Origin: Bolinopsis microptera | Taxonomy: Eukaryota; Ctenophora; Tentaculata; Lobata; Bolinopsidae | Length of the DNA stretch: 64,000 bases | Direction of reading: 5' to 3' | NCBI RefSeq assembly: GCF_026151205.1 | Contig: NC_087075.1 | Location: forward strand, 14,213,628-14,277,627 | The notes under the pieces: model-generated | Seen by the model: the letters and a program-made list of their open reading frames with translations, nothing else | What the model was told of the DNA's origin: nothing | Database searches by the model: none | Position numbers and translations under genes: made by a program | Part shown: positions 5,683 through 32,108 of the stretch, in pieces | Position numbering within the stretch: position 1 is the first letter of the stretch | How the letters are laid out: each line of letters begins with the position of its first letter

Positions 5683-6199
5683 TTTAAAATGAATATTCAC
5701 TATACCTTTTGCTTAGCAATTACTAGATAGTCGCTAATTTTGAAATATCTCCGGCTGTAAAGGTCACAGAAGGATCCAGTTATAGCTAAGATTTTTATTG
5801 TTGTTTTATGTGTATTCATTTATTGCTTGTTTAATTTGTTTTTTTTTTGTGTTCAATTTATGATTATTTGTATCTGAGATTCTGTGATTAATTTATTTTG
5901 TTGATTGTAATATTGTGATATTGCATAATTTATTGTAAATATAATATATGTTTCAGAATTATGTAATGTAAAGTGATGGAAATATTTTAAACGGGCATAT
6001 CCTGTCCAAACCCAGGATGCACTACATGAAGAATTCTTGTAAATTTGTTTGAAAATCATTAATACATTGCGGATTGCCTTGTTTGTATAAGCTATTTTAG
6101 TAAATATGTAGGAGCTTTGCTTGTACATTGTCTTCCCTCATTTTACATCTTGATACTTATTCACTTAACATTAAAAACCACTACTTTATAAAGGTGATC

Positions 6200-10735: not shown

Positions 10736-13700
10736 TTGTATAAACGAAATGGCAGCTCCGCGTGGATTTCACACAGTTTTAGGAACTGAAACAAAATGTC
10801 ATGTGTCATGATCGTATCTGTGAACACAAAGTAAAATACAGTTACTTCGAATAATCGAGTTGTCACAAAATGATGTTTGTAACGGCTTTCACCTATCGTT
10901 GAACACTAAAAAAGTACTAACCTCAAAAATAATTGACGAATTACTAGGATCACTATCAGATATGAATGTTTGGATAAATTTGCTTGCTTCAATGGCCACT
11001 CTGTCCATCTTTTGTAGCGCTTTTGAAGCATTTTTACCGCACGTGCCACAAGTCGGTCTCTTCTTTAGTAACGGAGAATTACATCTACAGCACCTGTAAG
11101 TTTAATGTCATTAACCACTTTCCCCTTGAGTTTGACTTTTCCTTTCGTTTGAACTTTCCCCGATCGATTTAAATTTTAAATTCACTCTATATTTCATATA
11201 TACCCAGGTTCGTTGGCTAAATTTACCAAATACCACCTTTTTAAAGGTTCTACTAACCTGACAGTGACACTAACCTGACAGTGACACTAATAACCTGACA
11301 GTAACACTAATAACCTGACAGTGACACTCCTCTACTAACCTGACAGTGACACTCCACTAACCTGACAGTGACACTCCTCTACTAACCTGACAGTGACACT
11401 CCACTAACCTGACAGTGACACTTCTTTGCACATCCTCGAAAGTAGGCCAGTTCTTCCTATCAGAGCACGGTCCACACCCACAGGTAAACAAGTACTGGCT
11501 CCTCAGAGCTCTCCTTCGTTCTGGGACTGCGTGTGTAGCGTAGTGGTAACCGTAGTTATCCAACAGTTCCTCTCCTGCTGCTATCTTCCGTAGTGCTCGC
11601 AGTATTGTTCCCCTCCTGAACCAATAGTTATGTTATAGGAGCTGGCGATAAAAAGCGTGGGTGACTCTATGTTAGTAAATTTGGTTATCTTAGTTATTAT
11701 TGGTTATCTATATTATATTTTAAACTTGACGAAATCCCCCCGGTAACGGGGACACAGAAAAACAAAATATGAAAATCGATCAAAAACCGACCCTCTGGCG
11801 TGGTCAATTTCAGCATGCAAATGGAATTGAAACCTCGCCATTTTTAGCAGGGTTGTAAATAAAGGATAGGAATAGGATATAGCATTCTTAGAATTTTGAA
11901 TCATGAGTATTTTATCATAATTCATACTCATAGCTTATTTAAAAATAAAAAGAAGTCACTATAAATTTACATACTAAATTTACATACAGCAATTTCTAAA
12001 CTAAAGGAAGTTGCATCGTATTGCTTTGTATGTGTAAAATATCATAGTTTGATAGCAGTTTGAAAAGTAGATAAGAAAGCCGTTACCCTACAGAGTGTCG
12101 GACGACATTAGGGTTACAGGAATGGTTCAGCAAACTCAGAAAGGGAAATGCTCCGGCTCCGATATCTGCATTTGCTGAATACCTAAAACATGTCAGATAA
12201 GAGGTTTAGAGTTATTCAAAGTTTCACTACTTTAAAATTTAGCATGAATTACCCTCTCTACCCTCAATTACCATATATCTAAATTAACCTGAATTGTTTT
12301 GTTATCTGCAGTTCTGATATCTCGTGAGCGTTGCAAGGGTAACTCTGAAGGCACTTCAGCAGAACAATCTGAGTAGTATTGTAGATACTCTCCAGTTCTA
12401 GTCTCCCTTTTACACACCCACCCATACAGATATCAACATCACCTACAGAGACACGGGAACATAACTCAGCTGCCAGGTCAGGACGGTTTATGAAGGAGTA
12501 CTTGTTGCAGGTTGAGAATACAGCGAGAGTATTGCGGAGTATGTTGGAGAGGAATAGTGCGAGGGTTGCTCGCTTGGTAATGTCTACTGGGGACCGGGAC
12601 TGGAAGTTTGTTATCAGGCTCATCAGCTGGGTGAACTCTACTGAAGTGTCCTGGAGTGGAACTTTGTTAGAAGAATTGTGGGCCATACTTATATTATTCT
12701 ACCTGGTTGTTTTGGTAATTGGTAAGAAGAAAAAGCGAGGGTGAAATTTATAGAGAAAGCGAAAGAAAAAGGGATAATAACTGATTGAGGAGCACTTCCC
12801 GGAGAAAACAACAAACCTTTTTTCGAGAATAGTGTACTATATCTCTGCGGTATTTAAGTATGGTCCTGAAGGCGAGGTATACCATTTTAGGGAGAGACTG
12901 TAGTTCAGGTAAATAACCGCACTCCATCTGTTAACAGGGGAAATTCATTGTTTCTGGGTATATTATGATGTTGCTTACATCTAATCCTATAGAAACTATG
13001 AGAGTTATAGATGTGGATACTGGTGGGGAGGTGAAACACATTTGTTTACTTTAATAGTAAGCACCTGTTCAGCGGGTTGAGGAGGTGAAACACATTTGTT
13101 TACATTTTTAGGGTAAGCACCTGTTCAGCGGGTTGAAGAGATGATACACATTTTGTATTATAGAAGGCTTGTAACACTTGTAACGCTTTCTTGTTACCCC
13201 CCTTTGAAGGCCCCGAATTATTTTCTGAACGAAAGCTCAAAAATAACCGAGAAATCGACCTTCTTATTAACTCATTTTGATGACTGTTTCTGACCTAAAA
13301 TTGCACGAAAAATCGATTTAGCTAGGTTTCAGAACCTATAAACACTTCCTTATCCCTCAAAATTGATGTTTTATAGTTGATACGAGCAACAAGCAACATA
13401 TGTTTTGATCCTTCGGTTCTACAGCTCTTGACCTAGGCAGTTAAGCTGAACCCGACAGATCGAGGCAATCCTCACCTTAACTGATCAAACTGGTACTAAC
13501 ACAATTTTCAGATATAAATGTTCTTTGCGATACGTTTATTGCAGCTTTGCAACTTGAGTGAAGACCAGAGTACGAAAACACACAGCAGGTAAGTAACTCA
13601 CTTTTGGTGACTGTTCCTCACGAACATTCTGATCCTGCAACATATGAACAGCTAGGGAGATCGTCTCCTTAACAAATCGGACAGGTACTATCACAATTTC

Positions 13701-16700
13701 CAGAGCACAGCATGATAACAAAGTCAAAAGAAACACAACGAAGGTAGGTTACCAACACCACAATATAACAATTATACTAACAACTGAATTAAATTTATTC
13801 TGACGACGGGCAGCCCTGATGTGCTCCGTCATCCTCAACGAGCGACCACTTGTAATAGAGGTGTTATGTCATGTGACACCGATCCGTCCAATCACAAACA
13901 GGACGAGTCAGCAGATCGATATCGTGTGTTTACTTTCCTTATCTTTATTTGACCCTCTGTTCACATTGTTATCTCTACCACATCTCGGCTCGGCAAGGTC
14001 CGCGTGCAATATCTGCACCGCGGTAAACACGCCATGATTACGTCATGAACTTGAAATAGTGTGATTGTTGTACTTATATAACCGTGCCCATTGCCCACGT
14101 ACAATACAAACTGTTGGGGGGGGGGGGGGGGGGTTTAAGATAAACAACCGATCTTGATAGTGTGTTGGTCGCTCCTCCAACTGACTGTGATGCTAACTGT
14201 TCAATCAGGAACGGAACATTAACATTGTTTAGTTATAGCATGTTTCGGTTTAGTTGTCCAATTGCGTATTATTAAAAACATTTACTCTAATATGAGGTCG
14301 CGATTGTGAACTGAGTGAGATCCAAATGATGAACTGTGCTTTAAGTTTACACCAACTGGAACCAAAGGAATAATGCATATACCCATGAGTGCTCCCTAAC
14401 TTAACTTGGACGGTAAGTGTTTGACAATAAAAACTAGGACACGAATTCTCTGACAAGAAATGTTAGCAGGTTTAAATAAAATATACCTGCAATTAGCAGG
14501 TTTAAATAAAATATACCTGCAATTAGCAGGTTTAAATAAAATATACCTCCAACTGACTGTGGTGCTTATCGTCCAGTCAGGAACAGAATAATAACATAAT
14601 TTTTTATTTATTCAAGTAGCCCTGGTCATTTTTAAAAAATCGTTGTCGACCTCCCTTAAAAAAACAGGGTTCAAATTGACCAGTTGGGCACACACGAATG
14701 CGATGTCGCTCAGATAAGGCAACATCTTCGCCACAACTTTGTTTCCCAAAATCTTGTACCGCTTCAGATAGCCAATCGAGCGTTCCACGTGGATGCGGGC
14801 GATGCTGACTTTCCTGCTGGCTTCTACTTCTTCCGGCGTGAACTGAGTCTTGCCCCACATCCCCGCTGGGATGTTTAGTGTAACTCCTGAAATTTAATTC
14901 GCTTTTTATTCCGCTTATTCTTAACTAACCGGACGATGATTAATCACTCTACACACAACTAGACTGTTACGTGACGTTTCAACACGTTTTCTAGCTGGCT
15001 CTGAAACCTTAACCACCCAGAATGATCCTAACCCTAACACAAACCCGATTTCTAACTTAAGCGTATGCTGAAACCTTAACGAGAAATTAGAAACCATAGG
15101 TCATAGCACGTTATCTCGCAAGAGGAGCATCATTTGGGTGATTCGCAATCAGCATACAAAATATAAATACTACGATTTAAGTTGGTTTTAACTGTTAGTG
15201 TTATAGGGGCCCGTTCAGAAAAATCTCATATTTCGAATGTAGCACGGTTGGAACTAACCTTCGGGCAAAATGTCATGAATGAGGAACCCCTTGTCAGCCA
15301 TCACGTTGTCACCAACAGTCAGCTTCTGCAGTATGTCACTATCCACTACAATTTCCTTGTCGGTTGTGCCACCAGGGTAACAGCGGCTGACATATGTGAT
15401 TACCCCACTGGGTGCAATTCCAATCAGTAACTTAGCTGTGTGCGTAGCTGGAGATGGAACAGAACGATTATGCAGGGGAAATTGTATGAGGTACGATAGC
15501 AGAAGATCTGTAATTTACGTTGCAGGTTCAGCATTATTGAAAGGTATGATCGACTGAACTTACACTTATAATGGCTGTAACATCTGGCGCCCGACTCAAT
15601 GTTGGACGGAGCTTCAATTTGGACCTGTGGATTGTAGGAATTTTCAATTGCTACAGCTGCAATAACAAAATGAAATTTTGAACATCACAATTCGCACCCC
15701 GCCGTAATTGTACTGCTGTAAGAACACCAATTCACTGGTCACGTTCAAAGCGAAATATTGCGTCAACTTATCTGCTGTGACTTTCATAATTTTTTCTGAG
15801 CTCTAAAGTTGTAGCTGCTCATTCGGTTCTGGTAATGGACTCAAATCATACCTCGGTACAGTCAATCACTATCCTAGTGTTGGGGTGGGAAGCGAAGCAT
15901 GCGGGCATGGCTTTCTGGCACTTCGCTAGTGACGGTAGATTGTCGCCAACCAGGGTCTTGAATTTGTTGACCATGATATCCAGCCAGGACCTCCATATCG
16001 ATGTTATCTGTGATCTCGATACCTGAATTTACCTGCATTTAGCTTCGTTGCAATATACTAGGAAAAAAGTTTTAAAGCCGTCCCTAGAACAGCTGCATCT
16101 ATTTCTAACTCTTTTTTGAAAATGTGAGAAGTCAAAAATCAACATTTGAAAGGTCAACTGTTGTTACCCAAACTACCGCTGTTGCTACTAAAAATCTTAC
16201 CTGAAAATCGACAGCTAAAATATCATCAGGAAGATTAACTCGCAGTTTCTTCAACGTGATGAGCAGTTGGTCCTCGTACAGGAGGGTCGAATGTTTGTTG
16301 CCAGTAACGGCGTAGGTGAGGGAGGTTTGGGTGCGATAAGACCGGAGGAACTTCAGCAAGGCAAGAAATACCTCTCCATTAGGTAATCCAGTGTATTGGT
16401 GAACCTGGGTAAATATTTCAAATGCGGTAACGATTGGGACAACTTTACCTAAGATGACGTGAGGAGTAATGATTGTGGACCAGTTGAACACTTAGTGATT
16501 TGTCGAAGTCATGACATTGATTTTAGAATAGTAATGAAATGTAGGAGTCTGGGATAGTTCTAAAATCGGGTACAACAGTTTGACTCAATTACGATGACAA
16601 AGAGCACAAACCATTCGCGCAGAATTCTTTATGGTGGCGAATCTGATTCCCTCCAGAAGAGAGTTCTTATACCGCTGTTGGTGGGTGTCGCATACTCTCG

Positions 16701-19700
16701 AGTCACTAGTAATCCATGCCCTGAAAGAGGTTACAGTTTGAGTTGTGTTCTATATAATGGTATTTATGATGATTGCAGGTGTAACTACAAGGGTCCAAGA
16801 ATGTACGAATATGAAAACTGTTATGAGCAATCAACTAACGCGGGGTATGTTAGCTTGACCGATTCAAGGGCTCTTTTTGGTATCCTTCGTCTCCCAAACG
16901 TAGTACATCCAGGAATTGAACATTTCATAATCTTGTTAATGTAAAAGTTAGTATATAAAACTTGCAACAAGTTGACGTAGAAGTGCTGCACGTGCAATGT
17001 GCATATAATTAGATCGAGGAGCAGCGGTTCTGTATCAAAGCTGTTACAATTGATATGACTGGGCAGTTCGGCAAATTTAAAAATTAGTCGGCATCTACAC
17101 TTTCCTTATTCAGCAAATGTATTCGAATAAAGTTTGAGACAAGCAATATTATATCATAATGTTATTTATATTTACAGCTACTTTCATGTCTGTTTTTTGC
17201 ATTACTGACATTAAATTCCATACCACAGTGAGTACAGGAGTACGGTTTTGCTCCTGTGTGAACTCTCATATGCACTGTGAGATTACTGTTTCTAGTAAAC
17301 CGCTTACCACACACATCACACTTGTGTGCTCTCTCTCTGGTGTGCATCAGAATATGCTCTTTAAGTGTGTCTGCCCGTACAAACCGTCTCCCACAATACC
17401 TACACTTGAACTCATCATCGCCATGTGTTAGCTTGTGTTTCTTAAGAACATCAGGTTTGTTGAAAGACATAGGACACACATCACATCTGTATTGTAGCAG
17501 TGCATGCTCTGAACTGATATGATCATACAGTTCCTGTTCAGAGGATGTCTTAACACCGCACGCATGATACTGACAATTGTGTGTCTTGTTCGTGTGGTTA
17601 TGGTAGATGTGAGTAGTGAGGGTATTTTTCTGAACAGTAGTATAGTCACAATGTGTACACTTGTACTGCTTATCCCCCGTGTGTGTTAGAATATGACGGG
17701 TGAGGTGGTGCTGATGATCAGTCCTATATTGGCAGTAAGGACAGGCGAGTCTCGCTACTTCATCGTGTACTGTTCTAATGTGTCTTGTTAGATCACTCCT
17801 CCAACCAAACATGTTCCCGCACGTGTCACACTTGTGTCCTTTCTCTTTCCCCTTTCTTGATACTCCTTGAGTCGTCCCACATTTGTGTCTCTCCAGCTCT
17901 AGCTGCGTCTTAAACAGCTTCAAACAACCGGTTGCAGTGCAATGATATTGTTGACCTGTATTTAAATAAAGTAAGGAACTATCTAGTAATATCGCACGGC
18001 CTCGTGCACAAAGGTTTAAAATTGCGATAACTATATCAATGATCTGACCATTACCGACTCCTTTTTCCTTCAATGTTACTAGACTCTAGAGATTGTTCTC
18101 ACCATGTTCTAGATCGTGGTGTACACCGCTACAAGAAGGTAAGTTGTCATCAGATTCAGGTTTTCTGACACACTCTTTGGTTTGTGGTATGTTACTTTTG
18201 TTAGTACTTTCTATGGTATTGTCGCCATCATCATCTAGAACAATAATTCTATCCCTGTCTTTGAGAACATTCTTCACCTTTTTTTTATACCTGCGAGATA
18301 AAAAATTAGCATGTTAGCAATCCTAAAAGTACAGTTAGCACCACGCGATCAACTACAATTGCGGAACATATGCTGCAAATTATCGGTTAAATGAAGCCAT
18401 TACAGTATGTTTAAAGAAAACTTTTAATACGAACTAGGACATCAAAGTATCAAAACTCACTCCTCATGCGTCATGTTATGATAGTTATCATACAACTCAA
18501 GTGCTCGATCAAGACAAGTATCTGTTTGATCCTTGTTTATTCTACCAAACTTAAACCGTTCCTCATCATCGTCAGGTACATCCTTGCTCCTGTCTGATAT
18601 AAGTTCATTGTAGAGATCAGGGGGCAGCTCAATTCTCTCGATCTCCTCATCAGAGGACTCTCCGTTCTCCCTGAAAAGTAGTACCCATTGAACATATCAT
18701 AACACATTGCTAAGTTCAAAATTTAAATAGAATTTGGACTCTGACAAATATTTATGCAAATAAGGAACACAAGTTAAAGCTCCAAAACATGATTATGGTA
18801 AAGTGTTAAGTTATCCAGTAAGATTATATAAGTAGACAGTGTTACTAACATGTCCTCCACGAATTTCTCCCAGCCACCAGGATAAGTCTCACAAGTAATT
18901 TTATAGAACTCCTCATCCGGCATAAGATAGCCTATGTCAGCCTCACATATTTCATGTGTTAACTCAGGGTTTTCTGCGATCAGTTTACACACATCTACAG
19001 GACCATCTCTGAGATGAGAGGTTAGATTCTTGTTGACAAATAGATCTTTTAATGCTGGTACAGACTCAAGTTCTGAGTGTAGGAACATCTCTAGATCTTC
19101 TACTTCAGGAGTTTCAGCTTCTTCGTTAACAGAGTACTGGTTAACTTTTTGTTCGTCTGTACATTCTGCAAAATCCGATTCACCATTTACATTCTTGTTC
19201 CTCGTTTCAGGAGCACTGTCCGTATCACTGTCAGAGGGGTATCTGGGATCAGCCTTAACAAATTCCTCCAGTTTTATTAATCCATCTTCATACCGATTCA
19301 GCAACATCTCATCTGAATTGTGAGCTAATGGTTAAGATACCTGAATAAGATTTTTAAAACCTTGCACACTTGCACTCTTTACCACTCACCGACTTCCAGA
19401 GAATATTCTTATTGGCTGCGTCAGACACACACATAAACACAAACACATTTATTGGGATTATTAGTATAGATTAGACCTACATTGTGAGTAAGCTGTGGTG
19501 TGGTCCTCCCATTCTTCAGTCCGGTAACCTTCCAGTGGTGCATCTACTGTCATCAAACCCAGTTCCACTAACTTATCTCTGTTGTCTCTTATTCTCTTGT
19601 ATCTTCTGAGACTGTGTTCACACACACCTCCACAGTACCTAGTCCCTTCAAACACCTTCCACAGTGACATATGTTCTAAATATAACAAACTTGGTTTAGT

Positions 19701-22700
19701 TGAACTTTAAAAGATCAGTTAGGAATGAAAGTTAGTTAATGCAATTTGTGTCTTTTACAATTATAGTGCTATGTGATATCCTCACCAAACGATGTGACCA
19801 GTGGCAACTGTACATATATTATATTAGAAATATCACCCTTCCTTGTATGTTTTGCGCAAAGCGATTGTGTGCACAGGTAAACTGTGGCCGGGATTACAAT
19901 ATATCAGTTAAAAAGTTGATGTCGTGCAGGCCTCGTTGAAATTAGAATGGCACTAAAAGGAATGTGCTCCTCAAGCAGTCGTCGTTTGTACGGAAATTGG
20001 TCTGACGTTTGAGACAGCTCTCTCAACCCCCCTCCCCCCACCAAATGTTCACAAATTAAAGTATTAAAGTCCGTGGCTGGTGCAGAGTCTGGTGCAAATA
20101 TTATTCGTCATCGGAGTCCGATACGCATGGCTCTGCAAGATCGTGCTCGGCTGAAAGAGGTTTCAATTAGCTGCCTGATATGGGACTAAGTGGTGGTTCA
20201 GAGAAACTCTTGTGTAATTTGCATGCACTGCCGTATGGTACGGGAACAAATTTAATGTACAGGTCAAAATTAGTGCCGCTCACCTTGCTTGAGGATGTGG
20301 GGTATGAATTCATTGAAGTAGAATGTCTGGAGTTGCACAATCTTATGAACGTAGGAGTGGTCCTTCTGGACTGTGATGTAGAAATATGGTTTTTTTGGTG
20401 TCCAGGGGAAGAAATAGCACACCTTCCTTCCTGAGGACATTGAGGGACTGTTGAGCAAATATGTGATGTTCTAAATTTTGAGATTTTGCCATGGTGACAA
20501 ATTATGCATATGGTACCGCGACAATTGACCCCTATGTAATTACACTGGGCAATTGTCGCCCACCCCAAATTATTTGCTATTCTAACTCTACAATCTGAAA
20601 ACCTGAAAATACAAACCAGTAAAATGCAGCTGTCCCTGTATCTGGTCATAGTAGGTGTGGTTGGAGTTAAATTCAACCGAATCCGGTCCAGCTCGCAGAT
20701 ACGGCATGCTGGGCACGTTCCTAACCTTCGTTGTCTGAGCCTGACACTTTCTCACCCATTCGGCCACAGACTTGTCTTTTAGAGAGAAAATACATTTAAT
20801 CTCTAATGTTCCATCCTGTCCGACTAACCCGTCAGGTGATGCACCAAGGCAGGAAGTTTCCTTATCCAGAAATATCCCTGTCTCAGTTACCTTACATTGT
20901 GCCACAGTTAGGAAAAGTTACTATGAAATAATTCATAAGGTCATATACCGGTAGAAGCCTAGTATAATATGTTATGAGATGTAGCAGTGATTGTTTGGAA
21001 AGTTCTGCATGTTTGTGGCACTGTGATAGGTATGCAGTTTCGCAAACAGTTTACAAGTTACAACCTGTTCTGACCTGCAGACCCGTTAAAGCTACAAACT
21101 CCCTTCTAGCCTCGTCCTCGTGAGTAGTGCCCCACTCTAGAGCAGAGTGACCCTCGAGACGGTCAGCAGCGTAGAACAGGTCAGTCATCCTTTCCTCTCT
21201 TGTTTTAACTGGAAATTGGTCATCATGATGTTATATCGGTTATTGGGGAAAATTGTGAAGTCGACCACTCTTCATAAGTAATGAAAAGATCCTTGAAAAC
21301 ATTTCACTTATGCACAGCATTGAGAAGATCCTTCATATTTACCCTTTTCTGACTTTTTTCCGGGTTTAGATCTACCAGACAGGAGAGTCAGCACCTGATG
21401 GAACTTTGTGCTTGTCAGCCTGAACTTTTTCACCGCACAGTACAGTATGTTTGAGAACTGGCCTGTAGTGTCCTCTGCCAGCTGTACTATGTCCCCGTCG
21501 GGAAGCTGAATCTCACGTAAAGACTCACGTGCACTGTCGACCGTTTGCCCTGCACAAATTAGAAATGTTTGGAATACAACAGAATATTCTGTTTGAAGCT
21601 GTTTCCTTAAGTGAGTAATTTTAACAATTTACAAATGTACTCGACATTACACGTTCGGTCTTACATGACTTGATGATTTCATGTATATATTAATTACATG
21701 CAGTTCAATATACAAATCACCATACCTTTCTGTAGCAGATTGTACACAAGTATACGTGCCCACTTGATCAATGGGACAGTTTCGGGCGCCGGCTCCTCTG
21801 ACAGCACAAGTTTCAATCCAAAGTTAGGGATTATGGAGTCCATGTCGTCATAGAATTGTTTACTCCCTCCGGAGAAGTCCGCTACAGCACACTGTTGATC
21901 AGAGTTATCATCATTTTCCTCCAATCTTCAACCTGCTCTTCGATGCGCACTCTGAGATGTGCGCGCAGATTGATAGACGTTTCCAAGTCCATGTTCATAT
22001 CCTGGGTGAAGACTAAATTCAGTTTTACGTGAACCTTCAGCTTAATAAACGTTCCGGGTTTAACTTACATGTGATGGAGAATGGATAGGGGAAAAACTTT
22101 TGTACAAATGTAGTCCACAGAAACGTACATCAAGGTTGTACCGTAATGTGAATCATTGCAAAACTTACATATGCACACCATACAATTTTATGCGGAGCAC
22201 GTATATTTCCGCATTACTCTCTGCCAATGTCAATTTAAAAAAATACCATACCTGCATGAGTCGCTCGGCAAACAGAAGCATGTATACACCGCAGTCCACT
22301 CTGTTTGTCTGTTGGGGGACGGGGATCTTCTGAACCTCCAGCAGTGCTGAATATGTTAACTTTTTAAAACATTTTACGCATACTGTTATTTTCTTCCAGA
22401 TACTTCACGGAATATTCACACTGCACCCATTCTACAATATTATATTTACTCCCAGTTGCAGTTACCAAAAATTAAATCATTTTAAGTCATATTCTCTTAC
22501 CATACCGGGCCCTGCTTAAAACATTAAATTTTTAATAATACAAATTTGACTTACGGCCATGTGTGAGCATGCTGAAAGCCCTCCTGAGTCTTGTGTATGA
22601 CTGCTGTCCATAAGACGTCAAACTGTCGTAAATCCTCATGGAGGAAGTGGTGATGGCTATCAGGAGCCAATGTCCGGCGTCACAGACTGGGATTAGCAGG

Positions 22701-25700
22701 GTGAGCCCACAGAGTAGTGTGTGAGCTACCCTTTGGCACCACGCGTCGTTGTTCACCTGTCAAAAACATATTACAGTACGTATTGCAGGTAAATAGCTCT
22801 GGTAGAGAACGCCACATTATTTTTTTTTATCTCAACTCTTATTTTACTTCGGACATTCCAACAGCCACATTGTTACACAAGTGTGTAACCAGCCAATTAC
22901 AGGAAGCCGAAGGATTCAATTATACATTAGGCCAGTGACGGTTAAGGTAGTGTGTACCATACTTTCTTCGCCCGAGACTTTGCTGCAATGGGCAGCTCCT
23001 CATTTAACCCTCACACCCGATTTCTCGAGTATTTGGCTGAGTGGACCGGGGGGCTGCATAGACCACTCAGGATCCTTAGCTGAGCGTCGACGACGCTCAC
23101 CCCACGGCTAGTGACAGAGTCGGGAATCGAACCTGGTACCTCAAGCAATACCAGGCCCGGATTAACCAACTGAGCCACTAAGCCGTTAAAGCCACTAAGC
23201 CGTTAAGTGTGCTAATACAGTGTTTAGTACAGTATATTAATATAGTACGGTACACCCTAGGATTGCACAAATCATTGTAAGTGAATGATCAAAATTACCT
23301 CTGTCTGCGTTAAATCCTTCATATGCAAGTAAAGGAGTGGCCCCTGCACCGGTACATGGAAGGACTCGGAAGAGTTCTCATACTGGGCGACCAGGACTTG
23401 CAGCCACCCAGAGACGATGACGTCATTGAGCAGTTGCCTCGGACCAAGCGTCAGGAGATTCCCAGACTGCAGCTCAACCCCGCCTAACAACCGCTTCTCT
23501 ATCGTAGCAACCTGGATGACATATTTGAATAATGTGATATACAGATTTCCTGAAGAAGATTACACACATACTTTAATTTAGCAAGTTTTGTGCCATCATT
23601 ACATTTTACTAAGTACTAAGTTCAGTCTTTCTGTACATATTTCTAAATTTGGATTAGAATACAATGGCGGAGTCAAACTTACGTTGCTGTCTTCGAAGTC
23701 CATATGGTCATCGACCTCTATTCGGATCCTGTCGACAGAAGAGGGCATCTCTTCTATTGTGTCAACCTGAATGTTTAAATATACCTGACAATCTTTAATT
23801 GAACAATGTTTTTTGCACTCATGAACTTAAACAAAGTACTAATAATCCCTGTGCTAAGGGATCACTGCAGCACGTAATAGAAGGAGAAACTTACCGTTTT
23901 GGGGGATCGAGGCGGAGGAGAACTGTGGACTACAATTCCGAAGTCGTACGGGTCCTGCGATTCCTGCGATGACTGCGGCCTCAACTGAAACGCCCATGTG
24001 CAGGTTAACGTCTGGTGCCTGAAACAGTATTCTTGGTGAGTTTTGCTTAGTCGGTTAGACAGTGGATTTCAATGATTAAAAATGGTTAATGATTTTATCC
24101 AAATTGTTAACATACGTACTAGGAACTCAAATTGTTTTTTAGCTCAGCCCAGTATACGTACCTCACAAGATTGTAGCTGTTGCTGAAGAGCTCCCAACAG
24201 CGAGGACACTTGACCTCTTCCACCCTCATGTGCACTTTCTGAAAATGCTGCTTCAACTGAAAAAGTTAGTGCCTATCAGGAGAAGCGTAAACCTGCACCA
24301 TTATATGAAAATCAACGGCAAAACCGTACTAGTCTTATCGGCCGTTCAACTAATAAAAATAGCTCACCAGGTACTGGTTGTCACCCTTGTACTGGCAGCC
24401 TTTGTAAGTACATGGAATAGGGTCCTGGTTGCATGGGTAGCTGTTGTGTCGCGATAATGTACTGGAACAGTTGAACGACGCTCCGCATTTTCCTGGAAAA
24501 TATATATGTTGCTGTTTTTACAAAGGAACACAACACGACATGGACAGCAATCTCCAAATTACTAAATTAAGAACTAACAGCCTCAATGAATGTGTGTACA
24601 GTAAATTTTATTAGATATGCGGCTGAATTGTAACAGGATGTCCGAATTTGAAACGTCGATTCCTGATTCACTCAGTCCGAGTTGAAAAATCACGAGATCA
24701 CTTTAAACTGTTGGGAAGGTTACAAAACTTTATAAGGTGTTTTTTCCACTGTTACCAGCATACATGTGCGGCGATAAGATGTTCACGGAAAAACAATTGT
24801 GACTATGTATTTACCCACCACAATTGAACAAGTTTTTCAATCCGTGCTTTGAAGCCATGTGGTTCTTGTAGCTTCTGTTTCTGACAAATTGTACAGGGGT
24901 CTCGCACGTTACGCACCAAAACGGCATATTCAGATTCTAAGACTAAGAGGAAATTAAATTCACGTCGATCTATGCACAGATAATTTTTAGGCACGGACAC
25001 AGTAATCATGGTAGCATGGATTCAAACAGACAAGCAGTGTTATTTGCAGTAGCACCAGTTAACGATAGAGTACGTTTTCAGTTTGCGGGCCTGAATGTAA
25101 AGGACCGTCAATGTGGCCAAAAATACGATACGAATATGTACGGTACCAGCTAAAATATCTGCCAGTTACATTCAGTACAAGTAGAATTTTCATTCCATTT
25201 AATTTTAGGGAAGGGGAAGTTAAACAAGTAAATAAAATTTACCACTATTAACGGTTGAAAATATATATTGAACACGAAGCAGCACTACATCTGCAAAAAA
25301 GGGAACGAAGGTAAATTTAAACTAGCGTCTAAGACATGGCTTTGGCTACACAAGCAGTAAAGACGAAAGCATATGCAGAATGTTAGTAACACTAGCATCA
25401 TAACACCAATAGTTAGATTTGTAGTTGCACCAAGCTCTACAGGTGATAATGTTTGCAATATATAGTAACAAAGTATCTGCATGCAGGATTTTAAATAGAA
25501 ATTTTAATAGCGTACAGAAAAGCTCTAACCCATGATCCGAAATAAAATGCAGCTGGTAAACGAACTAAAGAGGGGTCCACTGAACGAACCGGACGCGGAT
25601 CACGCACGTTACGTGCACAGTTAATTTTTAAGCACGGACACAGTAAATCATATATGGTAGCATGGATTCAAACAGACAAACAGTGTTATTTGCAGTAGCA

Positions 25701-28700
25701 CCAGTTAACGATGGAGTACGTTTTCAGTTTGCGGGTCTATATGTAAAGGACCGTCAATGTGGCCAAAAATACGATACGAATATGTACGGTACCAGCTAAA
25801 ATATCTGCCAGTTACATTCAGTACAAGTATATTTCGAATAGAAATTTTAATAGCGTACAGCAAAGCTCTAACCCATGATCCGAAACCACTGAACCATTTC
25901 AACAGCGCACCTATTACCCGTTATCTATTTTATCAATACTTGAACTTCCGTGTTATCTCATCTAAAATAAACACCCCGCACACAAAATGAATTCCATTGA
26001 CTTTGAGGGCAAGTGCTGCATTTAAAATTACACAAACTCTTATTACAATTGTGAAAAGGATTCCAAGTTTACATATTTAAAACGGCAATGACTAATTACA
26101 CAGCACAAATTGAAATTTTGAGTGTCTAACCTGGTAAAAATGAACTGCACCATGGTGAACTAGTACTTCAACTCTGTCAGGTATAACCATGCTTGTCCTC
26201 CTGTATACTGCCTCCTCCTGGAACATACAGTTCTTGTCAGTGAAGTTGTGTCCTAGATTCTGTTTTTAAACACTTACTGTCAAAGTTAAGCAAAGCAGCA
26301 CTCATGGATATATGCATTATTCCTTTGGTTCCAGTTGGTGTAAACTTAAAGCACAGTTCATCATTTGGATCTCACTCAGTTCACAATCGCGACCTCATAT
26401 TAGAGTAAATGTTTTTAATAATACGCAATTGGACAACTAAACCGAAACATGCTATAACTAAACAATGTTAATGTTCCGTTCCTGATTGAACAGTTAGCAT
26501 CACAGTCAGTTGGAGGAGCGACCAACACACTATCAAGATCGGTTGTTTATCTTAAACCCCCCCCCCCAACAGTTTGTATTGTACGTGGGCAATGGGCACG
26601 GTTATATAAGTACAACAATCACACTATTTCAAGTTCATGACGTAATCATGGCGTGTTTACCGCGGTGCAGATATTGCACGCGGACCTTGCCGAGCCGAGA
26701 TGTGGTAGAGATAACAATGTGAACAGAGGGTCAAATAAAGATAAGGAAAGTAAACACACGATATCGATCTGCTGACTCGTCCTGTTTGTGATTGGACGGA
26801 TCGGTGTCACATGACATAACACCTCTATTACAAGTGGTCGCTCGTTGAGGATGACGGAGCACATCAGGGCTGCCCGTCGTCAGAATAAATTTAATTCAGT
26901 TGTTAGTATAATTGTTATATTGTGGTGTTGGTAACCTACCTTCGTTGTGTTTCTTTTGACTTTGTTATCATGCTGTGCTCTGGAAATTGTGATAGTACCT
27001 GTCCGATTTGTTAAGGAGACGATCTCCCTAGCTGTTCATATGTTGCAGGATCAGAATGTTCGTGAGGAACAGTCACCAAAAGTGAGTTACTTACCTGCTG
27101 TGTGTTTTCGTACTCTGGTCTTCACTCAAGTTGCAAAGCTGCAATAAACGTATCGCAAAGAACATTTATATCTGAAAATTGTGTTAGTACCAGTTTGATC
27201 AGTTAAGGTGAGGATTGCCTCGATCTGTCGGGTTCAGCTTAACTGCCTAGGTCAAGAGCTGTAGAACCGAAGGATCAAAACATATGTTGCTTGTTGCTCG
27301 TATCAACTATAAAACATCAATTTTGAGGGATAAGGAAGTGTTTATAGGTTCTGAAACCTAGCTAAATCGATTTTTCGTGCAATTTTAGGTCAGAAACAGT
27401 CATCAAAATGAGTTAATAAGAAGGTCGATTTCTCGGTTATTTTTGAGCTTTCGTTCAGAAAATAATTCGGGGCCTTCAAAGGGGGGTAACAAGAAAGCGT
27501 TACAAGTGTTACAAGCCTTCTATAATACAAAATGTGTATCATCTCTTCAACCCGCTGAACAGGTGCTTACCCTAAAAATGTAAACAAATGTGTTTCACCT
27601 CCTCAACCCGCTGAACAGGTGCTTACTATTAAAGTAAACAAATGTGTTTCACCTCCCCACCAGTATCCACATCTATAATACAGGGATATATAGATTAGTT
27701 CTCTAGGAAAATATCCTGACCGCACCTGATGCACTGTATCTGTAGATAAGCAGTCAACAGAACAAAACACAACGTCCGGGCACTTTGGGCATGGCAGTGG
27801 GGCTCTGAAATATAATAATTTATATTTATATTATATCTCAAATTCTAAATCCGGTACGGCTCTGCACACATGATATCTCTCTCTGCCATGAAACATGGCT
27901 AACCTTTTAAACTATGATTTAAAACCTAAACCTAAACTAAAACTCAACTGGGCTCTCCTATGTCACCTAACTAAACCTGAAACCAATAAGTAATTTTAGA
28001 TTATTATATTTTTCTATATGATTTTACATTTACACTTTTACATTCGTTGCTAAATTGTAGCTCTCTTATCAGTAGTTCTGTGTGCGCCTTGAATTATCTC
28101 TCTGGCTTTGTAGATTTGTATACATTGTTTGTACATTTTCTGTACAACGTGTACGATGCCTTATCCGCTACAGAGTGAACATATTGAGATGGTAGATGAT
28201 GCTATGGTTGAGAATGGCCAGTTCCTTACGGAATATGTGAATCAGATACACATGGCGACGGACAGTATTTTCAAGGAGATTAGAAGTAAAATCGGAGTTG
28301 AACACAACGATGATGTGCGATTTGATAAACTGAACCAGAGAAGTGTGCCTAGAGAAAGGTTATCAGAATGGTTAGAAACAATGTGCTGGATACTGAACAA
28401 TTATTGTGGACCATTGTTACAATCCGCCTCAGAAACAGCTGGCGACAACCGAATGTTCAGGAAAGAAAAAATAGCAGATGCGACCAAAATCATAGAACTA
28501 CAAGAGAAGTTACTCACTAAGCAAGAAGAAGATATGGCAAAAATCAATGATTTGCAGGAGAAGTTAGCTTCGAAGAAGGATGACGAGATTGGAACTGTGA
28601 AAATTGCAGCTCAGAAAGAGATCAAAACCTTTTCGTCTCTGTTGAAAAACACGTGCGAAAACGCCTTTGCACCGAAGAAGATCCAAGCTGCAGTGAAAAG

Positions 28701-31205
28701 GGTTGCCCTAGAAGATGATCGAAGTAAAAGTCTGATTATCTTTGGGCTTCCAGAGACGGAGGAAAACCTGGATGCTAAGGTATCTGGTATTTTGTTGGAC
28801 CATCTCAACGAAAAACCGAAAATTTTGAGATGTAAACGAGTTGGAAAGGACACAAGTGAACGAGTCAGGCCAGTGAAATTTATTTTGTCAAGCTCAGATC
28901 AAGCTCGTACCATCTTGAGCAAGACTAAGCTACTAAGACATGTAGACGGGTTTAGTTCAGTTTACATCACTCCTGATAGATCAGCTGCAGACAGGATGGC
29001 CTACAAGAAAGTTGTCGACCAGCTACTCAATAAAAGGACAGCAGAGCCTGACAAAGTTCATGTTATCAGGAACTTTAGAGTCATTAGCTCGGAGAAGGAG
29101 CCTTTAGAGTGATATATTTTCTATAAGTACCATATTATATGTTTTAATTCATTGATTAATTAATTTTTTGCTAGGGCCCAATGTTATTGCGGGTGTGGTA
29201 TTTTTTACTGCACACTACTGTGTTTTGGTTACCCCTCTTTCAATACATAATTTGGGTTTCATACTGGGATGGTGGAATTTAGGGCTATATCGGGTTTCTC
29301 CTTGTATAACTGGGTTTATTTAGAAGCATTCAATTCTGTATAATTATGTATTGTTTGAAAAGTTTAAGATAAAATTGGGCGACATCTGTCCGACAGCGAC
29401 ATCTGTCCGACAGCCGAATTAGCGATTTCGGACAGATGTCGCTGTCGGACAGGAGTCGTTTTTGGCGACAGATGTCGTTTTTTTCTGGTACCCTGAGTCG
29501 GACAGATGTCGCTGTCGGACAGGAGTTGTGTTACCTTTCTATATTTATATAACAAGTATATTGACGTAGTGGATGGTTGAGGGGGTTTCAAGCACAGGTC
29601 ACTCTCAAATCCTAAAGATAAGCAGTGGCCTTCGGTACTTGAAACCTCTTCAAACCTCCCCTGATTTATTTATTATTGATATTGTTTGATTGTGCCGTAA
29701 AAATAAATATTTGTTTTATTTTAAAAAAATATTCGTTTTATTAATAATAATAGTTATCTGATAATATAAAATATAATAATAATATCAGATTTAGAAACTG
29801 GAACTTGTGGGGGACTAAAAATTCTTATTAAAAAACACATCTTTAATAACTAGATATTATGACAATAGAACACAGTTAACACATGTTCTACTGACACTGC
29901 ACCTGCAAATATTGAGACAGTACTGACAGTGAGAAGACCACTTTCCAGGCAGAACAGTCCACACCTGCGCCTCTTCCACTACCAGCACGTCACCTGTAAT
30001 ACTTCATCAGGTCGTTATCTTTACATACAGATCAGGTAACCTAGTAACCTTGTTGCCCTGGTAACCTGGTAACCTGGTAACCTGGTAACCTTGTTCTTAC
30101 CAATATGTAAATCCTCGTTAACCACGACGAATCTCCGTCTCTCCTCTGACGGCCCTAAACACCTGGTACCCTAGTAACCTTGTTGCCCTGGTAACCTGGT
30201 AACCTGGTAACCTTGTCCACACCTGCGCCTCTTCCACTACCAGCACGTCATCTGTAATACTTCATCAGGTCGTTATCTTTACATACAGATCAGGTAACCT
30301 AGTAACCTTGTTGCCCTGGTAACCTGGTTACCTTGTTCTTACCAATATGCAGGTCCTCTTTAGCCACGACGAATCTCCCTCTCTCCTCTGACCCTAAACA
30401 CCTGGTACCCTAGTAACCTTGTTGCCCTGGTAACCTTGTTCTTACCAATATGCAGGTCCTCTTTAGCCACGACGAATCTTCCTCTCTCCTCTGACTCCGC
30501 TATTTGTAACTTGCTGGTTACAAAGTTATATTCCTCTGATAAAACAGTTTGTGTAACCAAGTCAGGTGGTGTACACTGTCTCGGAGGGTTGTGACACTTC
30601 TCCCCAGTACTGGTATTTACTGACTTCTCCTCAGTGTTCACTGAAGTACTGGTACCTGGGGCCTGGTTCAGTACCCGGAGGATTTCCCTTTTCAGTTTAG
30701 TTAGAGGACACTGCTCTATTGGGTCAAATCTCCGTGTTATTGGACTGAAGTGGGTTTCATCGTTTGAATTTTGTTCTTCTTTAGAGTTCGAATTGAAAAT
30801 AGATTTGAAGCACCTCTTACAACAGATTGATTTTAAGAGCTTTAGATCTGCCCTCATTTCATAATTGAGGCTCAACTTTGAGAGCACGACAATCCTCACA
30901 GCAACAATCAACACAAGTGACTCAGTAGCAGCAGAGTTCTTGATAGCTTCACAAAGTTCAGATAAAGCAAGCAGATGATTCCCCTCCTCAGCTAGCACCT
31001 CCGCAAACCCTACATGTGCTCTAGCTAGCTCGTCAGATTTGTAAGACTTAGAGAGAGTGGGAGAGAAGGCTGTATCTGAGGAGTGTAAGTGAGAGGTCAC
31101 GTGGGAGAGGAGGGTTTCCTCAGAGCTCCTGTTATTCTGCACTTGTAGTCGTGTGAGGTGGTTCCGGAGGAAGTCTGAATATTGGCGCTCAAACTGCGAG
31201 TACAT
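10669..31205 (-). CDS. SMYD4-like: SMYD4-like SET/MYND lysine methyltransferase, 9 exons
   Basis: Exons on the minus strand: 31205-30446, 29993-29903, 27804-27726, 12927-12817, 12698-12289, 12182-12087, 11615-11409, 11093-10922, 10785-10669. They total 2043 nt (680 aa) with matching phases and GT-AG borders. Order of domains: a helical N-terminus, possibly TPR-like; an early SET strand (GRFVVAKEDLHIG, then GDVLVVEE); a MYND zinc finger built across exons 2-4 (CxxC, CPKC, CSVDC, HxxxC); a middle helical part with PCNAHEIS; the SET core FLSLLNHSCNPNV and NYGYHY; the post-SET CGCGPC; and a final Cys pair cluster (CCRC, CGTC). SMYD proteins transfer methyl groups from S-adenosylmethionine to lysines. 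The SMYD4 type is larger and linked to heart and muscle development in vertebrates. Intron 3 holds a 14.67 kb transposon, and several exon borders are tandemly duplicated. The extreme C-terminus is the least certain part. Confidence 0.9.
11255..11423 (-). repeat. Tandem array of 5' splice donors, 8 copies
   Basis: Eight copies of a 17-25 bp unit (AACCTGACAGTGACACT on the plus strand; starts at 11255, 11272, 11292, 11312, 11337, 11359, 11384 and 11406). On the minus strand each reads ACTGTCAG|GTTAGT or close to it, a good donor. The last exonic copy supplies the donor of exon 7 of the SMYD4-like gene (exon end 11409). Confidence 0.85.
13005..14393 (+). repeat. Left terminal inverted repeat
   Basis: Inverted partner of 26297-27678. 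The outer part (13021-13145) holds three related units built on GGTGAAACACATTTGTTTAC and GCACCTGTTCAGCGGGTTGA, a possible transposase-binding array. The two short frames reported inside it recur unchanged in the other repeat and are not supported as genes. Confidence 0.95.
14464..14553. repeat. 30-bp tandem triplication
   Basis: Three copies of a 30-bp unit containing AGCAGGTTTAAATAAAATAT lie just inside the left inverted repeat. Next to them (from 14547) is a diverged copy of a segment of the inverted repeat found at 14175. Confidence 0.85.
14612..16928 (-). CDS. DDE transposase, DDE_Tnp_4 type, probable THAP-like start
   Basis: The core exons on the minus strand are 16404-16201, 16022-15852, 15624-15564, 15447-15259 and 14886-14612, 900 nt with consistent phases. 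They hold an N-terminal helical/HTH part (VHQYTGLPNGEVF ... EDQLLITLKKLR, then VSRSQITSIWRSW). The three catalytic acids follow: D in HPNTRIVIDCTE, D in NVMADKGF and E in RIHVERSIGYLK. This is the IS5/PIF-Harbinger-type nuclease. Two upstream exons (16928-16840 and 16720-16673) give a Cys-x4-Cys (MKCSIPGC) and Cys-x2-His (SRVCDTH) with a Trp before the second pair, as in THAP DNA-binding domains. Joining them to 16404 needs an exon I did not find, so the N-terminus is tentative. The stop codon overlaps an AATAAA signal. No lesion is seen in the core. Confidence 0.92.
14925..15095. repeat. MITE fragment in a transposase intron
   Basis: GATTAATCACTCTACAC and the stretch ending AACGAGAAATTAG match, in inverted orientation, pieces near 9290-9340 and 9671-9770. 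It lies in the intron between 14886 and 15259, so it entered, or came with, the larger element without touching its exons. Confidence 0.55.
17162..19670 (-). CDS. C2H2 multi-zinc-finger protein carried by the transposon
   Basis: Five exons on the minus strand: 19670-19481, 19312-18850, 18670-18461, 18290-18103, 17955-17162, totalling 1845 nt (614 aa) with matching phases. The first three exons give an acidic, mostly non-globular part with a short Cys-containing N-terminus (TRYCGGVCEH). The last exon holds about nine C2H2-type fingers with classical linkers such as HTGDKQYKC and HTGAKPYSC, plus one atypical finger (CQYHACGVK). Tandem fingers of this kind bind DNA in a sequence-specific way. 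The gene lies between the YqaJ and transposase genes, in the same orientation, and fully inside the inverted repeats. It is therefore cargo, possibly a captured host gene or an accessory factor that recognises the element's ends. An upstream exon is possible, because an acceptor-like TTTAG lies just before the start. Confidence 0.88.
20101..21924 (-). CDS. YqaJ/lambda-exonuclease-type nuclease
   Basis: Exons on the minus strand: about 21924-21726, 21549-21343, 21208-21075, 20890-20617, 20430-20284, 20150-20101. Phases agree from the first junction to the stop. From the first in-frame ATG (21843) the product is about 309 aa. Signature segments of the YqaJ domain appear in order: KKFRLTSTKFHQVL, LEWGTTHEDEARREF, LGASPDGLVG followed by the Asp/Glu-x-Lys site (TLEIKC), YYDQIQGQLHFTGRK and FFPWTPKK. 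This is the PD-(D/E)XK nuclease fold of phage lambda exonuclease, which resects duplex ends. Its use in transposition is inferred. The first exon overlaps the last exon of the protease gene in another frame. A TGA stands directly before the open stretch at 21924, so the true start is 21843, an upstream spliced exon, or a fusion with the protease. Confidence 0.9.
21882..25009 (-). CDS. Zinc-finger/Ulp1-type (C48) cysteine protease
   Basis: Exons on the minus strand: 24492-24368, 24256-24162, 24018-23895, 23766-23683, 23511-23299, 22756-22555, 22346-22252, 22001-21882 (about 352 aa), with agreeing phases. The first part holds three zinc fingers: CGASFNCSSTLSRH, CTYKGCQYKGDNQYL continuing to HFQKVH, and CPRCWELF to HQTLTC. 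After an acidic linker comes a C48 protease domain: LLNDVIVSGWLQVL, His in AGHW, Asp in RIYDSL, and Gln plus Cys in QQTNRVDCGVYML. That is the Ulp1/SENP catalytic set. A first exon at 25009-24815 (start MITVSVPKNYLC) is likely, but its junction to 24492 is off by one base in either plausible frame, so the 5' end is unsettled. An exon at 26226-26131 may also belong. The role could be processing of element proteins or removal of SUMO; neither is shown. Confidence 0.88.
22990..23195 (-). repeat. tRNA-derived SINE in the protease gene intron
   Basis: The minus strand from about 23190 reads like a tRNA: an A box (GTGGCTCAGTTGG) and, after about 40 nt, a B box (GGTTCGATTCC), followed by an unrelated body to about 22990. 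No intact tRNA cloverleaf could be drawn, so it is a SINE head and not a tRNA gene. It lies between protease exons 23511-23299 and 22756-22555. Confidence 0.7.
24975..25830 (+). repeat. Duplicated ~215-bp segment with two 45-codon frames
   Basis: 24975-25190 and about 25610-25830 are direct copies with few differences. Each contains a small plus-strand frame, at 25016-25153 and 25662-25799, both 45 aa, beginning MDSNRQ and ending MYGTS. The first copy's ATG is 7 bp from the start of the protease exon on the other strand, so the duplicated piece may include a promoter. Coding status is unknown. Confidence 0.6.
26297..27678 (-). repeat. Right terminal inverted repeat
   Basis: Inverted partner of 13005-14393. 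Its inner end is at AGCACTCAT (26297-26305). Differences seen are the homopolymer length at about 26557-26567 and rare substitutions near the inner end. Confidence 0.95.
28156..29112 (+). CDS. LINE ORF1-like coiled-coil/RRM protein
   Basis: An uninterrupted frame of 318 aa from the ATG at 28156. The longer frame back to 28129 needs a TTG. Residues about 105-165 are Glu/Lys-rich heptads, likely a coiled coil. Residues about 195-310 read SLIIFGLPETEE ... KRVGKD ... RPVKFIL ... YITPDRSAADRM, the pattern of the RRM-like core of retrotransposon ORF1 proteins, which bind RNA. No reverse transcriptase follows, and I see no poly(A) tail or target duplication. It lies on the opposite strand within intron 2 of the SMYD4-like gene, so it is either a 5' fragment of a retroelement or a domesticated copy. 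Confidence 0.6.
   Translation: MPYPLQSEHIEMVDDAMVENGQFLTEYVNQIHMATDSIFKEIRSKIGVEHNDDVRFDKLNQRSVPRERLSEWLETMCWILNNYCGPLLQSASETAGDNRMFRKEKIADATKIIELQEKLLTKQEEDMAKINDLQEKLASKKDDEIGTVKIAAQKEIKTFSSLLKNTCENAFAPKKIQAAVKRVALEDDRSKSLIIFGLPETEENLDAKVSGILLDHLNEKPKILRCKRVGKDTSERVRPVKFILSSSDQARTILSKTKLLRHVDGFSSVYITPDRSAADRMAYKKVVDQLLNKRTAEPDKVHVIRNFRVISSEKEPLE
29376..29525. repeat. Inverted repeat cluster of a 16-bp motif
   Basis: The motif GCGACATCTGTCCGAC occurs twice in one orientation (about 29379-29415) and its complement three times (about 29428-29520). The two blocks can fold into a long hairpin. No coding function is seen. Confidence 0.8.
29995..30440 (-). repeat. Triplicated exon-end/donor block of the SMYD4-like gene
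   Basis: A block made of the 3' end of SMYD4-like exon 1, its donor (GTAAGAAC) and GGTAACC-rich intron sequence is present three times. Exonic parts lie at 30446 (real), 30393-30343 and 30154-30101. Both extra copies keep an open frame, are preceded by GTTTAG and end in the same donor. They could therefore act as in-frame cassette exons of 51 and 54 nt. Confidence 0.8.
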
Positions 31206-32029
31206 TCTTCCAGTACTACCACTATTAACACCACTATACTATCACTATTAGTATTACTAGTACTAGTAGTACTATCAGTATTACCACTATAACTACCCTA
31301 CTGTTACTACTACTAGTACTATACTAGTACTGCTACTACCGCGAGTACATTGCTCTGAAATAAAGCGTTTACATATAAACTTTTGGAAATGGTTTTATAG
31401 CAATGTTTTGATCGTTTAAACTTAAAGCCTAAAGAGTAACGACAATATTTGACATAAGGCACCATGTGAGAACAACGACTAGATATTTATTTAACTTTCG
31501 CAAATAAAATGTATAATTTCAAATTAGCTGAATAACACTAATTAATTTAACAGTTTCAAACGACATAACGTACGTGAAGGAGGAAAATATTCTGGTTCAA
31601 GTAAAAGTAAGTCAAGAGAGAAGTGTAAGTTAAAAGTGTGAGTTAGAGCCCAGAGTGCCTATTATATATAGAATATAATATAGTATATATAGAATGTGTT
31701 GCTGAGCGTGGAGGCGAGTCTGTCAACACATCAGAACACAATGTACGTGTAGTGTGTAGTGTACTTGTAGTGTATTCTAGCTCTTATTTTACATTTAACT
31801 TAAATACCATATATATATTAATATTAATAGTTACGTTTTCTTTACTTTAGAGACTTATTGAGTTTCTCAGGGTTCACTTCAGTTTAAGATTATAACGTCT
31901 TCGAGGATGCGCTATTTATCAGAAACAAAACAAAACTACAATGCACGTTTGTACTTTATTATTATCACTTCGAGATGGCCAGGCCTACTCTCATGCTGTC
32001 TATATGTGATGATTAATTCTGAAAAACTA
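31206..32029. other. Upstream region of the SMYD4-like gene
   Basis: Low-complexity TAC/ACT sequence at about 31213-31345 lies next to the start codon. The rest is AT-rich with no recognisable gene. The promoter must lie here or further right but cannot be pinpointed. Confidence 0.4.
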
Positions 32030-32108
32030 GGGACAACTGGGGAATGATCCCAGAACCTCGAGATTTCGCGTCTCTTGCTCTACCAATTGAGCTACTGACC
32101 CTGATTCT
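32030..32108 (-). repeat. tRNA-like SINE head
   Basis: The minus strand reads TAGCTCAATTGGTAGAGCA (A box) and then GGTTCTGGGATCATTCC, an imperfect B box. The anticodon arm lacks a T before the anticodon, so a working tRNA gene is unlikely. The sequence differs from the SINE at 22990-23195. From 32109 to 33085 I see nothing else; the 83-codon frame at 32605-32856 has no recognisable domain. Confidence 0.65.

Follow-up and report, generated by a model that had tools for sequence, protein, structure and literature searches.

We analysed a window of 64,000 nucleotides from the ctenophore Bolinopsis microptera (contig NC_087075.1, positions 14,213,628 to 14,277,627 of the forward strand; unprefixed positions below are those of the window). 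At 13009–27674, the window holds a DNA transposon copy of 14,666 bp with all of its genes on the minus strand. We think it likely, from the sequence features described here, that this copy belongs to a family of ISL2EU-type cut-and-paste DNA transposons in which four co-oriented genes form one unit of about 15–17 kb. In the order of transcription, the genes encode a zinc-finger/C48 protease, a YqaJ nuclease, a C2H2 multi-finger protein, and a DDE transposase. The initial annotation of this stretch had placed an element at 13005–27678; the element is real, but comparison of copies sets its ends at 13009 and 27674.

Exons with GT–AG borders on the minus strand assemble into four open frames with 23 introns in total. 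The transposase gene (14612–16928, seven exons, 365 residues) has Pfam matches to DDE_Tnp_4 (E 1.4e-39) and HTH_Tnp_4 (E 5.5e-12), and a PDB sequence search of its protein against solved structures gave no near match. A C-x4-C ... C-x2-H pattern near its N-terminus is THAP-like by eye only, and the THAP domain that had been assigned to the transposase was not confirmed: neither Pfam, at E values of up to 10, nor a PDB sequence search gave a match. The C2H2 gene (17162–19670) has five exons and encodes 618 residues; Pfam finds the fingers, while the N-terminal part, which begins MSLWK and is novel, contains no Pfam domain above the cut-off and no KRAB. The zinc-finger/Peptidase_C48 gene (21882–24927, nine exons, 388 residues) is Ulp1/SENP-like, and the lambda-exonuclease-like YqaJ gene (20101–21843, 309 residues) is truncated at its N-terminus. 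For these two genes, the Pfam queries were composites of window exons and exons of the copy on C12, and they matched Peptidase_C48 at E 7.4e-11 and YqaJ at E 4.4e-16. The PDB sequence nearest to the protease is SENP7 (E 5e-5). Those nearest to the YqaJ protein are lambda-type exonucleases (best E 1.1e-9), and the alignment includes the stretch with the catalytic D-E-K residues (SPDG ... ExK). The C48 catalytic residues H, D, Q, and C are present as GHW, YDS, PQQ, and DCG in both the window protein and that of the copy on C1. The complete YqaJ protein of other copies (469 residues) has, towards its N-terminus, a CxC...CxH motif that we take to resemble SWIM, although Pfam makes no SWIM call on that protein. 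A search for viral relatives of the YqaJ protein gave two pattern matches among viral contigs, and neither is related.

The copy in the window has arisen by internal deletion. Comparison with the copies on C1, C12, and C5 places an internal deletion junction with three shared bases at 21925–21927, between the last protease exon and what remains of YqaJ. The sequence missing there amounts to 1.54 kb relative to C1, 1.67 kb relative to C12, and 2.54 kb relative to C5, which holds additional insertions in this stretch. The deletion removes YqaJ exons 1–4 and the start of exon 5, so that the frame has 309 residues here against 469 in the other three copies, and the protease C-terminus, ...RIEEQVEEH* in C5, C12, and C1, is replaced by a tail read from the junction. 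Of the four spliced, one-strand genes that had been taken as intact, the strand and the open frames stand, but only the transposase and C2H2 genes are whole. With the first exons of YqaJ gone, the suggestion that the window copy might still be active is not supported for the complete unit; it could presumably move only with proteins supplied by more complete copies. The window copy also has 377 bp in protease intron 6 (22826–23202) that are absent from C5, C12, and C1. This insert is tRNA-SINE-like by eye, and neither Rfam nor ARAGORN makes a call on it.

The exact ends of the element were set by aligning 17 copies with both ends read. The conserved start is AGATGTGG and the conserved end is CCACATCT, so that the termini are AG. 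AT is found at the left flank in 17/17 copies and at the right flank in 16/17; the exception, the C7 copy, abuts another end-like sequence. In the window copy, these flanks are 13007–13008 and 27675–27676. One copy (L024) sits in a 12-bp tandem repeat, the period of which is restored once the element and one AT are removed (flanks judged by eye), and we therefore read AT as a 2-bp target duplication. The base ahead of AT is A in 9/17 copies and the base behind it is T in 7/17, for comparison with the ISL2EU target A|AT|T.

The long, nearly identical inverted repeats reported in the initial annotation are borne out. The arms of the window copy are complementary at 100% over 1,122 nt (13005–14126 and 26557–27678) and at 95% over 341 nt more, out to 14463 and 26227. 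Each arm is thus about 1.45 kb, the left one (13009–14463, plus strand) lying on the 3' side of the genes and the right one (26227–27674, minus strand) on their 5' side. Within each arm is a 22-bp subterminal repeat in two perfect copies, at 13057–13078 and 13113–13134 (minus strand), mirrored at 27549–27570 and 27605–27626; these four matches compare with 0 expected in 100 shuffles. The left and right arms of one copy are 96.8–100% identical over the outer 480 bp in each of 16 copies (L015 was left out), and the arms of the C1 and C7 copies differ from those of the other copies by about 10% (median) on both sides. Left and right arms carry the same subfamily changes, which implies that arms have exchanged sequence at some time. 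Arm-to-arm exchange of this kind, possibly promoted by a resecting exonuclease that the element itself encodes, would explain the shared changes. An expanded array of the terminal repeat was also seen at C10:1270244–1271903, next to one end copy.

The genome (264.65 Mb in 232 contigs, 13 of which are 15–26 Mb long and hold about 258.1 Mb) was searched for further copies. The inverted repeat has at least 84 matches, a lower bound on the copy number because the best 40 of 788 first-look candidates were scored. The YqaJ catalytic exon has seven matches (9/9 candidates scored), three of them distant and four at ≥96% identity. These four are the window copy on C4 and copies on C5 (16,830 bp), C12 (15,535 bp), and C1 (15,288 bp), and every one also holds the C48, C2H2, and DDE genes, arranged alike and enclosed by the same two ends, with flanks of its own. 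In C5, C12, and C1, all four frames are open. It could be supposed that unrelated genes have come to lie between two repeat copies by chance nesting or through an assembly artefact, given the large number of end matches and the scrambled element fragments found on C12. The agreement of the four copies in genes, order, and ends, each in a different setting, rules out chance nesting, and we assign this explanation a negligible probability. The genome search and nesting check proposed with the initial annotation thus came out in favour of its reading of the element as an ISL2EU-type unit to which a zinc-finger/C48 protease and, as a distinct product, a multi-finger protein have been added.

Smaller copies are numerous. 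For the final exon of the transposase gene, 79 matches were obtained (87/87 candidates scored). Among the short copies mapped, L012 and L014 retain transposase exons 4–7, L018 retains these in part, and L021 has exon 7 only; a copy of 5,658 bp on C7 has transposase exons 1–7 and most of C2H2 exon 5. All of these appear to have been derived from the large element by deletion. Copies on C3 and at L035 retain C2H2 exons 2–5. The protease search gave 38 matches (40/40 candidates scored), of which 16 lie within the four elements; the other 22 are on C12, at 12.717–12.745 and 12.992–12.994 Mb. The C48 cluster at 12.7 Mb was considered as a host family that donated the protease gene; this is not supported by the two stretches read (L036 and L049), both of which are scrambled pieces of the element. 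Diverged YqaJ fragments in two copies, 42–80% identical, lie at C9:9.112–9.121 Mb (L033); this locus has no clear second gene set, and a weak protease-finger match (46%) is found just outside it at C9:9120864. These fragments are perhaps an older related element. A further YqaJ match, at 43%, was seen at C3:4458205–4458456 inside a 284-residue open frame.

Selection on the four genes was examined by the Nei–Gojobori method between the C5 and C1 copies, with binomial tests against neutrality that treat substitutions as independent. The dN/dS ratio is 0.19 for the transposase (dS 0.096, dN 0.018, p 1e-6), 0.20 for YqaJ (dS 0.060, dN 0.012, p 1.6e-5), 0.22 for the protease (dS 0.270, dN 0.059; p 2.6e-4 for its catalytic part), and 0.45 for the C2H2 gene (dS 0.112, dN 0.050, p 1.9e-4). 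Purifying selection acts on each of the four genes. The protease is heterogeneous: its finger part has dS 1.37 and dN 0.16 (ratio 0.12), whereas the remainder has dS 0.090 and dN 0.018 (ratio 0.19). Because the deep divergence is confined to the finger part, we suggest that the C1 copy gained this end of its protease by recombination with an older lineage.

These values bear on whether the element is an ordinary two-gene ISL2EU transposon that has captured C48 and C2H2 genes as passengers with no role in transposition. ISL2EU elements as published have two genes only, many copies in this genome lack the two additional ones, and the ratio for C2H2 is the highest of the four. Nevertheless, we find passengers improbable, as the two genes keep open frames in C5, C12, and C1 with ratios well below one, the protease finger part has stayed constrained at a dS of 1.37, and the smaller copies mapped have a truncated transposase too, except for C7. 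The element is most likely an autonomous cut-and-paste transposon with accessory proteins.

The assignment to ISL2EU is by features and not by a transposase tree. ISL2EU, a group of the PHIS superfamily with 25 families in 14 animal species, is described as having an AT duplication at an A|AT|T target, a transposase with DDE, HTH, and THAP domains, and a YqaJ gene (PMC4482050; also PMC9179366). The element here shares the AT duplication, the DDE_Tnp_4 and HTH transposase, the separate YqaJ gene, and an animal host, and we class it as ISL2EU-type because the duplication, the DDE/HTH transposase, and YqaJ match. It differs in other respects. The described range comprises terminal inverted repeats (TIRs) of 6–259 bp, usually GG termini, two open reading frames (ORFs), and an average of about 4,840 bp (PMC4482050), whereas here the TIRs are about 1.45 kb, the termini are AG, and copies of 14.7–16.8 kb carry four genes, the C48 protease and C2H2 genes being the extra ones; THAP, present there, is unconfirmed here. 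These same differences could point to a separate PHIS group that gained its AT duplication and YqaJ gene independently, or to a sister lineage. We judge that unlikely, given that AT duplication, DDE_Tnp_4 with HTH_Tnp_4, and YqaJ make up the described ISL2EU set.

Among the open-licence papers listed by literature searches, none describes an ISL2EU element that carries genes for C48 and C2H2 proteins. Ulp1 domains do occur in other DNA transposons, namely, Ginger1 and Mutator elements (PMC2836005), which resemble the element here in encoding an Ulp1-type protease domain. In Ginger1, a Gypsy-integrase-like transposase ends in an Ulp1 or OTU domain, whereas here the C48 domain, together with C2H2 fingers, is encoded by a gene of its own and the transposase is DDE_Tnp_4. 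PIF/Harbinger elements likewise have a related DDE_Tnp_4 transposase and a DNA-binding accessory protein, but their duplication is TWA and their partner is Myb/SANT (PMC4482050), in place of the AT duplication and the YqaJ, C48, and C2H2 partners found here. No Pfam match to Myb/SANT was obtained among the window ORFs and assembled proteins scanned.

The C2H2 gene has relatives outside the element. Its N-terminal exon has 27 matches in the genome (29/29 candidates scored): four in the full elements, one in an element fragment (L020), 19 elsewhere at 78–90%, and three at 44–51%. Many of the 19 non-element loci belong to tandem arrays on C10 and C13. Arrays with units of about 4.5 kb were seen at C10:349–387 kb, C10:857–894 kb, and C13:14.486–14.495 Mb, along with single loci (L034, L037–L048). 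L034, on C10, has a five-exon layout like that of the element gene, and from exon 2 to exon 4 its introns can still be aligned with those of the element at about 82%. The finger exons of 13 non-element genes were read and 12 were used, one short row being dropped; at least seven further listed genes are outside this set. An unrooted tree separates the six element sequences, as a single group, from the 12 array sequences with support 100/100.

Variation among the array genes is concentrated where DNA is read. The contact positions (−1, 2, 3, and 6 of eight fingers, 32 in all) have a mean entropy of 1.74 bits over the 12 array rows, against 0.33 at the 234 other positions, and 0/10,000 permutations gave a value as high. 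Furthermore, pN/pS among the nine C10/C13 rows is 1.42 at the contacts and 0.29 elsewhere. Diversification of the contact residues is known from vertebrate KRAB-zinc-finger families, and by these measures the tandem family outside the element shows a KRAB-ZNF-like pattern. The two are alike in varying mainly at DNA-contact residues, but the family here has no KRAB, and one of its branches sits inside a transposon. The element therefore carries a member of a family that is diversifying, outside the element, where DNA is read. Lineage-specific C2H2 proteins of ctenophores are also represented by CTEP1 and CTEP2 of Mnemiopsis, which are tethering proteins with loop promoters rich in transposable elements (PMC12221973); they are likened to the present family by description and not by sequence.

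It is conceivable that the arrays are domesticated descendants of the C2H2 gene of the element instead of its source. The tree is unrooted, and the alignable introns of element and array genes would be accommodated by descent from the element. However, the family outside the element has more members and a wider distribution, with 19 close loci by the N-terminal exon, it is arranged in tandem, and no transposon end was met in the 6.5 kb of array sequence read (L034). We regard domestication as less likely than not.

A mechanism can be proposed in which each protein has a putative part. The transposase would pair the ends bearing the 22-bp repeats and insert the element with a 2-bp stagger; cut-and-paste of this kind is very likely. 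The YqaJ protein, as a lambda-type exonuclease, would work on transposon or donor ends and steer repair, and we put end resection at about an even chance. The zinc-finger Ulp1 protein may strip SUMO or a related tag off the transposase or chromatin at its binding place, and deSUMOylation of these targets is a similarly balanced proposition; maturation of element proteins by this protease is improbable. The C2H2 protein might bind the element ends, which we hold to be possible though somewhat doubtful, or might compete with host zinc-finger proteins, for which the chances are lower still. According to PMC8131101, SUMO promotes silent chromatin in yeast, plants, and animals, and this leads us to an anti-silencing idea for a SENP-like protease that the element encodes and that has fingers of its own. 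Together, the protease and the C2H2 protein could then be a counter-silencing module. The latter, as a member of a tandem family with diversifying DNA contacts that resembles transposon-silencing KRAB-ZNF arrays, would serve as a decoy or competitor for silencer binding, and the former, as a zinc-finger-guided protease, would remove SUMO from repressive complexes at the element. We advance this module as speculative and unlikely as things stand; if it were true, a cut-and-paste transposon would possess its own anti-silencing kit, drawn at least partly from the host zinc-finger repertoire.

Several points weigh against this account or parts of it. The case is built on sequence, and expression and mobility are predicted. 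The THAP domain expected of ISL2EU was not detected by Pfam or by PDB sequence search. The evidence for selection comes from a single subfamily comparison (C5/C12 against C1), and the C1 copy is recombinant in the 5' part of its protease. Own arms are closer to each other than to the best other copy in 6/16 copies, with four ties and six lower, so recent arm-to-arm conversion is unsupported. Between the C5 and C1 copies, the C2H2 contact positions have changed at 7/32 against 25/230 elsewhere (Fisher p 0.07), which is not a significant enrichment. Finally, end binding found no support in a crude scan of C5-type and C1-type fingers on the inverted repeat, using a zinc-finger recognition code, in which 3, 30, 10, and 2 of 40 shuffles scored as high as the real sequence.

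The proposed assignment would widen the range of ISL2EU-type cargo by two extra selected genes, at about 3× the published average size and with inverted repeats >5× the published maximum. A direct link is also made, in a ctenophore, between a transposon and a family of zinc-finger genes that is diversifying. Two questions could thereby be tested in one system: the reason for the recurrent acquisition of Ulp1-type proteases by DNA transposons, and whether an arms race like that of vertebrate zinc-finger genes arose independently in an early-branching animal, where a transposon encodes a protein of this type. The three copies with all frames open (C5, C12, and C1) permit gene-by-gene tests.

Trans-spliced leaders are common in Hormiphora californensis (n = 13; PMC8527503). 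A 32-base stretch of the Hormiphora leader has one match in the Bolinopsis genome, with three mismatches and directly followed by GTAAG, against 0 for the reversed control; this single match agrees with a ctenophore host. The remainder of the window contains several further features. An ORF on the plus strand at 6104–7036 has a RicinB_lectin_2 domain (E 4.3e-6), and the rest of this ORF, by eye, we take to be natterin/aerolysin-like. Another plus-strand frame of 332 residues (28114–29112) resembles ORF1 of non-LTR (long terminal repeat) retrotransposons by eye and has no Pfam match above the cut-off. The largest repeat is a 22-kb satellite at 34499–56626, made of about 295 copies of a 75-bp unit at 99%, and shorter tandem arrays lie at 59072–59953 (366-bp units), 61457–62124 (21 bp), and 63339–63507 (7 bp). 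On the minus strand are a tRNA-Ser(CGA) gene at 32028–32102 and, at 62412–62993, an exon with a match to the HECT ubiquitin ligase domain (E 1.6e-9).

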